DNA of 64,000 bases from positions 1 through 64,000 of the forward strand of contig CALSRJ010000002.1 of NCBI GenBank assembly GCA_943788725.1. Direction: 5' to 3'. Within the stretch, counting starts at the first letter, position 1; the number at the start of each line of letters is the position of its first letter. This document shows, one piece after another, positions 53,243 through 54,901 of this stretch. The notes under the pieces were generated by a model that ran no database searches, was not told the origin of the DNA, and saw nothing but the letters and a program-made list of their open reading frames with translations. Both the position numbers and the translations under genes were made by a program. The stretch is from an uncultured Flavobacteriales bacterium (GTDB taxonomy: Bacteria; Bacteroidota; Bacteroidia; Flavobacteriales_G; Salibacteraceae).

Positions 53243-53250
53243 TACCTTTG
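53243..53250 (+). promoter_or_regulatory. -7 promoter box (TACCTTTG) for pyrG
   Basis: Exact TAnnTTTG match. With the usual spacing the transcript would start in the CCC at 53254-53256. Confidence 0.6.
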
Positions 53251-53253
53251 TTT

Positions 53254-53279
53254 CCCGTATTGATAAAAACAAATACGGG
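53254..53279 (+). promoter_or_regulatory. 5' hairpin of pyrG mRNA overlapping the start codon
   Basis: Perfect 8-bp stem CCCGTATT (53254-53261) / AATACGGG (53272-53279) with a 10-nt A-rich loop. The last G is the first base of the GTG start codon. It covers the whole predicted leader. Confidence 0.5.
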
Positions 53280-54901
53280 TGTCAACAAAGTACATATTCG
53301 TCACAGGAGGCGTGACCTCCTCCCTTGGAAAAGGGATCATCTCTGCCTCTTTAGCAAAACTCCTTCAGGCCCGCGGTTATTCGGTGACGATTCAGAAATT
53401 GGATCCGTACATCAATGTTGACCCCGGCACCCTCAACCCTTATGAACACGGTGAATGCTACGTCACAGACGACGGTGCAGAGACCGACCTGGACCTCGGA
53501 CACTACGAGCGATTCCTGAACGTTCCGACCTCACAGGCGAATAACGTGACTACGGGTCGGATCTACCAAACCGTCATTGATAAGGAACGCCGTGGGGATT
53601 ACCTTGGCAAGACGGTGCAGATCATTCCGCACATCACGGATGAAATCAAGAACCGGGTTACGAAGCTTGGCAACACGGGGCAATACGAAATAGTGATCAC
53701 GGAAATTGGCGGCACCGTTGGAGACATCGAATCCCTACCCTACATCGAGGCAGTGCGTCAGTTTCGATACGAACACGGATATGACAACGTCATGGTCATT
53801 CATCTTACGTTGATCCCTTATCTAGCAGCGGCAGGAGAATTAAAGACCAAGCCAACCCAACATTCCGTCAAGACGCTTCAATCACAGGGTATTCAACCAG
53901 ATGTACTGGTCTGCCGAACCGAATATCCACTTACGGTGGAACAGAAGAAAAAGATCGCCTTGTTCTGCAACTTGAGCGATAGTTCGGTCATAGAATCGAT
54001 GGATGCGGAGACGATTTATGACGTGCCGATCCTCATGAAGAAGGAGGCGCTTGACAAAGTGGTACTTGAACGCTTGAAACTTCAACTCCGCGATGAGCCG
54101 ACCTTAGACAATTGGAAGCATTTCCTCGAAGTCTTCAAAAACCCGAAGCGCACGGTAAGAATAGGATTGATTGGCAAGTATGTTGAATTGCAAGATGCTT
54201 ACAAATCAATCCAAGAAGGGCTGGTGCATGCGGGCGTCAGCAATGAATGTTCTGTAGACGTTGTTTCTGTACACTCTGAAGACCTTTCTGATGAGAACGT
54301 AGCTTCTGAATTATCCGGAATGCAAGGGATCATCGTTGCTCCAGGATTTGGTCAACGCGGTCTTGAAGGGAAAATCACGGCGATAAAGTACGCCCGCGAG
54401 AACGGTATCCCCTTCTTTGGAATTTGCCTGGGAATGCAGTGCTCCGTGATTGAATTCGCACGCAACGTACTCCATCTCGAAGGAGCAAACAGTACTGAAA
54501 TGGATGAGCAGTCTCCAAATCCGGTCATCGACATCATGGAAGAACAGAAGGCCATCACCAACATGGGAGGAACCATGCGATTGGGGGCGTATACCTGCGA
54601 TGTACTAGAGGATTCTCTCGCACATCAGATCTACGGACGACGCGAAATTTCCGAGCGTCACCGTCACCGCTTTGAATTCAACAACCGATTCCTCGAACAA
54701 TTCGAAGCTGCAGGCATGAAGGCTTCGGGAAAGAATCCAGAAAGTGGCTTGGTTGAGATCGTTGAGATACCGTCGCATCCTTTCTTCGTCGGTGTCCAAT
54801 TCCACCCCGAGTACAAAAGCACCGTTGCCAATCCTCATCCCATGTTCGTCCACTTTATCAAAGCTGCGATTACGGAAAAGGAACCCGTTTCGGCAACCTA
54901 A
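53279..54901 (+). CDS. pyrG: CTP synthase
   Basis: A 540-residue enzyme that makes CTP from UTP, ATP and glutamine. The synthetase half starts [20 protein letters not shown], with the dethiobiotin-synthetase-like P-loop. The glutaminase half has GFGQRG, the nucleophile in [14 protein letters not shown], and the His-Glu of VQFHPEYKS. It starts at GTG, which is fixed by the family's conserved N-terminus. Regulation may act through the hairpin that spans the leader and start codon. The PAP2 gene follows after 9 bases. Confidence 0.96.

Follow-up and report, generated by a model that had tools for sequence, protein, structure and literature searches.

A candidate CTP-responsive start-site latch on the translation start of pyrG in Bacteroidia

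The window analyzed here, a whole stretch of 64,000 nucleotides from an uncultured member of the Salibacteraceae, carries a pyrG gene for CTP synthase (PF06418 at 427.7 bits in the ORF 53279-54901, the sole match in the genome by profile search). The leader of this gene has a run of C close to its predicted transcription start and can fold back towards the GTG start codon, which raises the question of whether the first transcribed nucleotides could sense CTP and control translation of pyrG. An earlier note on this DNA had suggested so, by analogy with E. coli pyrC. We addressed this question by predicting the start and the folds of the window RNA and by comparing pyrG leaders within the genus and across the class.

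The pyrG leader of the window and its genus

The leader reads TACCTTTG-TTT-CCCGTATT-GATAAAAACA-AATACGG and then GTG, with the following features:

53243..53250, + strand: TACCTTTG, -7 box of the primary sigma factor of Bacteroidota (TAnnTTTG), from the sequence and the published box position
53251-53253, + strand: TTT spacer between box and C-run, from the sequence
53254..53256, + strand: CCC, predicted transcription start with +1 at 53255 plus or minus one, from box spacing and N3-CCCG conservation
53257, + strand: G, a purine at which transcription may alternatively begin (+3), without CCC, the stem then being at -2.2 kcal/mol
53254..53261, + strand: CCCGTATT, putative 5' arm of the latch (the pairing of the 5' end with the start region), from sequence, congener stems and folding
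53262..53271, + strand: GATAAAAACA, loop, which differs between congeners, from sequence and congener comparison
53272..53279, + strand: AATACGGG, putative 3' arm of the latch, whose final G is base 1 of the start codon GTG, from sequence and congeners
53279-53281, + strand: start codon GTG of pyrG, from the sequence
53279..54901, + strand: pyrG, CTP synthase of 540 aa with a GTG start, from the PF06418 match
53300..53311, + strand: codons V-T-G-G (GTC ACA GGA GGC), the place of the 3' partner in most C-run relatives, unused here

In F. psychrophilum, the TAnnTTTG box is described at -12 to -5 (PMC9723704), and the same spacing predicts +1 of the window's pyrG at C55 (bases are named by their last two digits, C55 being 53255), with an uncertainty of about one base. 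CCCG would then occupy -1 to +3, that is, a C-run followed by a purine within the start-site window. A C at +1 is unusual, since 45% of the transcription starts reported for B. thetaiotaomicron are A and 41% are G (PMC7366714). The start had been placed within CCC in the earlier note; the C-run indeed sits at the predicted start, but the published spacing points to C55 and not to C54.

The predicted fold depends on the first base. An RNA beginning at C54 forms a perfect 8-bp stem (-10.1 kcal/mol, z -3.5) that none of 200 shuffles equals, while RNAs beginning at C55, C56 and G57 reach -7.5, -4.2 and -2.2 kcal/mol, equaled by 1, 4 and 17 of 200 shuffles, respectively. Thus, the 8-bp stem reaching the first base of GTG, as initially described, is perfect from C54, but the C55 RNA has 7 pairs and the start-codon G falls outside. 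Likewise, a G57 start had been expected to lose three G-C pairs and stay open; its predicted stem is indeed weak, but a 5-bp remnant remains, so that it would not be fully open. A stable 5' hairpin over the translation start is predicted only for C-started RNA of the window, in line with pyrC/pyrD-type switching. Rfam covariance models gave no match in 52700-53800 at E values up to 1 and none at gathering score across 17 pyrG loci, and no Shine-Dalgarno sequence is visible by eye in the window's pyrG leader.

By folding, all 13 genomes of the genus have the 5'-terminal bases within a stem that lies immediately ahead of the GTG start codon or extends onto it. In 12 of them, no more than 2% of shuffles fold equally well, the other being L008, with 5 pairs and a p value of 0.085. 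The loops diverged while the stem was kept. Two congeners (L005 and L013) have CC in place of CCC, and the stem of L003 just fails to include the start codon. A pair counter found two-sided changes in 0 of 8 stem pairs, with shuffles scoring equally, in an alignment of 13 rows made up of 12 of the genus and L094 (L007, near-identical to the window, was omitted); L006 and L012 appear compensated only when a bulge is permitted. The structure is kept in the genus, yet covariation inside the genus is no evidence for it.

The C-run behind the promoter box across Bacteroidia

By protein similarity, we collected 80 named relatives, which gave 79 leaders as L055 is without a start. Loci of the family (L094-L111) and of the order (L119-L124) came from the matches listed, with a few genomes left out, and 40 further places were added in two batches, 38 of these being class members from a phylum draw. 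The resulting discovery set comprises 156 parsed leaders, genus included.

First, TAnnTTTG-N3-CCCG was found ahead of pyrG in 32 of the 69 named leaders with an exact box. Elsewhere in these loci, N3-CCCG follows 1 of 469 TAnnTTTG boxes, and 1 of 72 boxes near an ORF start. Second, the C-run stands three bases past the box in 32 of 33 cases. Third, pyrG leaders of this type span Flavobacteriales, Sphingobacteriales and the window's own order, the named CCCG carriers including Pedobacter, Sphingobacterium, Mucilaginibacter, Muricauda, Aequorivita, Robiginitalea and a Crocinitomicaceae genome. Among the matches listed, all 18 family leaders have CCCG or CCG, and 5 of 6 order leaders have CCCG; L194, from the window's order, is without CCCG. 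At box spacing, CCCG is absent from three named Bacteroidales leaders (L036, L070 and L073) and from the Flavobacterium, Tenacibaculum and Lutibacter leaders. Altogether, about half of the Bacteroidia leaders are without CCCG (75/156 in the discovery set and 48/83 in the hold-out set described below), and the best 30 loci from other classes of the phylum gave CCCG in 0, CCC in 3 and CCG in 1.

Two broader readings of the motif were rejected. CCCG after the box is not a general promoter feature, with 7 matches in the own genome (pyrG included) versus 5 for a reversed control, and with the 1 of 469 boxes of the relatives mentioned above. The class-wide pattern TANNTTTGNNNCCCGTA is not the mark of a regulon either: it occurs in 92 of 197 genomes, but pyrG was found in only 9 of 30 fetched loci, and no common theme was seen in the remaining ones, whose genes were judged without systematic annotation. 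The few other TAnnTTTGnnnCCCG sites on contig C1 of the own genome (L112, L113 and L114) include one before a tRNA-like stretch with a Met anticodon (by eye); other such sites precede a ribosomal protein L33-like ORF and a dihydrolipoyl-acyltransferase-like ORF (both named by eye).

Several other types of pyrG leader were noticed. In CCCG-less leaders of the Flavobacteriaceae type (L026, L035, L059-L062, L067, L068, L076, L085, L179, L183 and L187), a 5'-terminal hairpin of the GCGTT..AACGC type ends about three bases before ATG, a different 5'-end structure in the same position. AAACC(T/C) forms a second conserved start sequence in pyrG leaders of 11-14 nt (L021-L023, L033, L047, L157, L161, L175 and L177) and in the Chitinophaga-type L038 and L063; one idea is that its A-run followed by C could permit slippage at low CTP. 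Flavobacterium-type leaders (L057, L071, L075, L082, L083, L086, L159, L160, L174 and L192) start near AGTTTTTT or CGTTTTTT, with a T-run that resembles those of UTP-sensitive E. coli promoters. Outside Bacteroidia, CCCAAA lies near the box in the pyrG leaders L125-L127, L132 and L129, the last of which has UCCGGUUAUAU complementary to codons F-I-T-G.

Complementarity between the 5' end and the start region

By searching for the best partner of the 5' end (E <= -8) in 126 C-run leaders of both sets, we found it in the V-T-G codons in 88, at the start codon, just upstream of it or in codons 2-3 in 27 and elsewhere in 4, with 7 weak cases. In most CCCG leaders, CCCGUA(AC) has its complement within the V-T-G codons, mostly as GTT ACG GGN, and not in the leader. 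The conservation of hairpin and C-run that the earlier note proposed to check in related pyrG leaders held far past the genus with regard to the C-run and its complementarity, and in all congeners with regard to the stem, but the hairpin before the start codon is just one of several partner arrangements. As a conserved unit beyond the genus this hairpin was rejected, since it recurs there only in L094, with other or shorter stems in L052, L106 and L165.

In the discovery set, Thr ACG stands at V-T-G in 50 of 81 CCCG leaders versus 5 of 75 without CCCG. In CCCG loci with a long coding sequence, it is seen in 40 of 67 against 10.2 expected from each gene's own codon usage, while non-CCCG loci show 5 of 49 against 6.6 expected. 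None of the 27 leaders with a partner at or around the start codon uses ACG, an observation that is supporting rather than independent because this class is partly defined by energy.

The pairing takes different forms in different leaders. In Pedobacter L041, CCCGUACAAAAA pairs with AUUUUUGUUACGGG with one bulge; in L163, CCCGUAACGA pairs with UCGUUACGGG; in L181, CCAUAAGAAU pairs with AUUCUUAUGG, start AUG included; and in L253, CCCGUGAUCGC pairs with GCGAUGACGGG around one G-G mismatch (pairing by eye). Four CCGG leaders, with G at 5' position 3 (L018, L101, L277 and L297), all have C at the Thr wobble (ACC), in a pairing register moved by one base post hoc, and six V-T-G-partnered leaders with T (U) at position 6 have it opposite Val GTA. 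Over all C-run leaders, position 6 is associated with the Val wobble (p 0.003) and position 3 with the Thr wobble (p 0.005) in Fisher tests uncorrected for kinship. There are also counterexamples among the V-T-G-partnered leaders, with A at position 6 opposite Val GTA in 8 of 87 and position 3 unpaired in the simple register in 10 of 87; some V-T-G mismatch cases pair via a bulge, such as CCCG-UA-GUUAC leaders with GTA ACC GGG. For four leaders with CCCG or CCCA the best partner lies elsewhere, the long leaders L272 and L290 have no partner at the start region, and no good partner was found for the non-CCCG types AAACC and GTTTTT.

With a partner at V-T-G, the start codon would sit in a loop that ranges from about 27 to about 90 nt, and blocked translation is less obvious there. 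The loop is probably too small for a ribosome in the short leaders of this type and less clearly so in the long Sphingobacteriaceae ones. By eye, the Pedobacter-like long leaders (L041, L045, L077, L090 and L173) contain one more hairpin, variable in sequence, in the stretch from the CCCGTAC start to ATG.

We then examined the pairing in 83 further Bacteroidia leaders kept as a hold-out set. Of these, 23 came from returned loci (three more of the new loci were already in the discovery set) and 60 were picked among the matches listed, at about one per genus; all 83 are at most 80% identical to any discovery leader. CCCG was present in 35 of 83. An energy of -9 kcal/mol or better was reached by 30 of 35 CCCG leaders versus 7 of 48 others in the hold-out set, and by 74 of 81 versus 15 of 75 in the discovery set. 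ACG was carried by 20 of 35 CCCG and 13 of 48 other hold-out leaders (Fisher p 0.007); among these 13, the box was probably misplaced in some, L234, L240 and L241 having CCCGTA right before ATG.

When partners were swapped between genomes, the native hold-out pairing (-12.0) was better than that with partners of other CCCG genomes (-9.7) or of non-CCCG leaders (-7.8), and the corresponding values in the discovery set were -11.5, -10.2 and -6.7. Raw energies thus overstate the case because GC-rich 5' arms bind any V-T-G-G stretch fairly well, as the swapped means of -9.7 and -10.2 indicate. By moving a 12-nt sliding window along 73 leaders, we observed that the own start region beats a swapped one, by -1.24 kcal/mol, only when the 12-mer begins at the first C; at 12 further offsets between -24 and +12 the values range from -0.22 to +0.31 kcal/mol. 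Since lineage-specific pairing appears only at the first C, this also supports the predicted placement of the start.

A pairing energy of -9 was reached by 2 of 37 other genes that have a box close to ATG versus 82 of 162 for pyrG, a comparison in which the CCCG arms are GC-richer (0.48 versus 0.31). Synonymous randomization of the coding part, locus by locus, gave p <= 0.05 in only 27 of 80 CCCG and in 4 of 73 other leaders, with none in the window's genus because its partner lies upstream. On a tree of 50 proteins (37 of the genus, family and order, plus 13 others from 17 hand-chosen, 4 being too short), the place of the partner, coded in four states with "none" included, changed 14 times. 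On a tree of 137 proteins with 11 independent pairs, CCCG goes along with strong pairing in about 6 of them and runs counter to it in about 0 (median p 0.03), an agreement due in part to the GC content of the arm itself; the link between CCCG and ACG alone gave 4.4 versus 0.1 of 11 pairs (median p 0.125). Finally, over 113 leaders the predicted duplex averages -11.8 kcal/mol for RNAs starting at the first C, -9.4 for those starting at the second C and -4.7 for those starting at the G, a G start retaining -6 kcal/mol or better in 20 of 113. Together, these comparisons support well a putative latch of the 5' end on the pyrG start region that is widespread among Bacteroidia leaders.

Proposed mechanism, alternatives and known systems

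What the comparison establishes at the level of sequence is the position of the C-run, its complementarity to the start region, the conservation of both and partners that differ between lineages, together with a predicted loss of energy for G starts. The best reading of these features, by analogy with E. coli pyrC, is that CTP sets the latch through start-site choice. RNA polymerase would begin the pyrG mRNA at C (C54-C56) or a few bases on at G57. When CTP is plentiful, the C start would allow the 5'-terminal CCCGUA to pair with the start region and keep ribosomes off, the partner being just upstream of the start codon plus its first base in the window and, in most C-run relatives, the V-T-G codons about 12-30 nt downstream of the start codon. 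When CTP is scarce, the G start would lose the C-G pairs, and the mostly unpaired leader would be translated to yield more CTP synthase. Since CTP is the product of pyrG, a latch closed by C starts and opened by G starts would provide negative feedback of the right sign. We lean slightly towards a CTP-responsive start-site latch that, as a whole, controls pyrG translation; its 5' end, its CTP dependence and the translation block are what we infer.

A less probable account is reiterative transcription, in which high CTP would cause slippage on CCC, giving abortive poly-C RNA or extra C that lengthens the latch, and low CTP would permit escape, the C-run and not start-site choice being the sensor. 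Slippage is established at nucleotide-gene promoters, Gram-positive pyrG being an example (PMC4448216), and it would fit a C-run at the predicted start that is kept in many genera regardless of the downstream sequence. However, it accounts neither for the complementarity of these same bases to the start region, with compensation specific to each partner, nor for the conserved GTA behind CCC, and it sits poorly with the two congeners that have CC only. We give a similarly low weight to a fixed 5' structure without CTP sensing, which would set a low level of translation or shield the 5' end from decay, with the C-run serving merely for strong G-C pairs. Other Bacteroidia pyrG leaders do have 5'-terminal stems that end beside ATG without a C-run (the GCGTT..AACGC type, L020, L268 and L281), but a fixed structure would not predict a C-run held three bases past the box although C is rare as a first base, nor that most long CCCG leaders (47-86 nt) still partner V-T-G and not the nearby leader, L263, L272 and L290 being exceptions.

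A role of CCCGTA as an operator in DNA, or as a site in RNA recognized by some regulator, appears improbable: a short string next to the promoter and conserved in many genera would suit such a site, but it has no inverted repeat by eye and no Rfam match, and partner complementarity, varied partner sites and compensating changes are not expected of an operator. Chance, by which hairpin and C-run would be ordinary GC-rich features, is the least probable account: the 7 occurrences of TANNTTTGNNNCCCG in the own genome versus 5 for the reversed control speak for it, but the stem kept in 13 of 13 congeners despite diverged loops and the box control, hold-out, swap and sliding-window tests all speak against it.

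Start-site switching sensitive to CTP/GTP and coupled to a translational block was reportedly described for pyrC and pyrD of E. coli and Salmonella by Wilson in 1992 and Sorensen in 1993. Their start is a C-run followed by a purine, their hairpin sequesters the Shine-Dalgarno sequence, and control through the choice of the first nucleotide is known from a few enterobacterial genes. A low GTP/CTP ratio is described as shifting the first nucleotide to C, giving an mRNA that folds and blocks the ribosome (PMC7818426), and the anatomy of the window's leader agrees with this logic, as the earlier note had proposed. As in pyrC and pyrD, a pyrimidine-pathway gene is concerned, the C-start RNA is predicted to form a 5'-terminal hairpin over the ribosome entry site, and neither a regulatory protein nor a ligand-binding RNA would be needed. 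In contrast to these, the latch would belong to another phylum (Bacteroidota), a TAnnTTTG promoter and the gene whose product is CTP itself, and its 3' partner often falls within the coding sequence, varying by lineage. Furthermore, no Shine-Dalgarno sequence was seen covered and the start does not rely on one, as described for flavobacterial translation initiation (PMC9723704). Because of this and of the often coding partner, the proposed latch would work like pyrC but is not classed as the same element.

For B. subtilis-type pyrG, whose start sequence is a G-run followed by C, Meng in 2004 reportedly described attenuation via CTP-sensitive reiterative transcription. Slippage there adds G and prevents attenuation (PMC4448216). 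The gene, the signal CTP and a sensor within the first transcribed nucleotides would be shared with our proposal, but here the start is CCCGTA, the partner is at the start codon and no terminator-like site was found in 53150-53420. At E. coli codBA, upp and pyrBI, initiation is UTP-sensitive and transcripts are lost to slippage. These also have a homopolymer run at the start able to sense its own NTP, whereas the conserved feature of pyrG is base pairing with the start region. Our literature search, mainly of freely available papers, found no such description for Bacteroidota.

We regard it as evenly balanced whether, in much of Bacteroidia, CTP synthase has a sensor without a protein or a ligand-binding RNA, in which the identity of the first nucleotide would decide latching onto the translation start and the V-T-G-G codons would double as half of the latch, the 5' half having stayed CCCGUA while the partner site changed repeatedly. 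If true, a case spanning a class of Bacteroidota, where the promoter is of another type and initiation does not use Shine-Dalgarno sequences, would show this to be a general solution to CTP sensing, and it would account for the strong codon preference inside pyrG.
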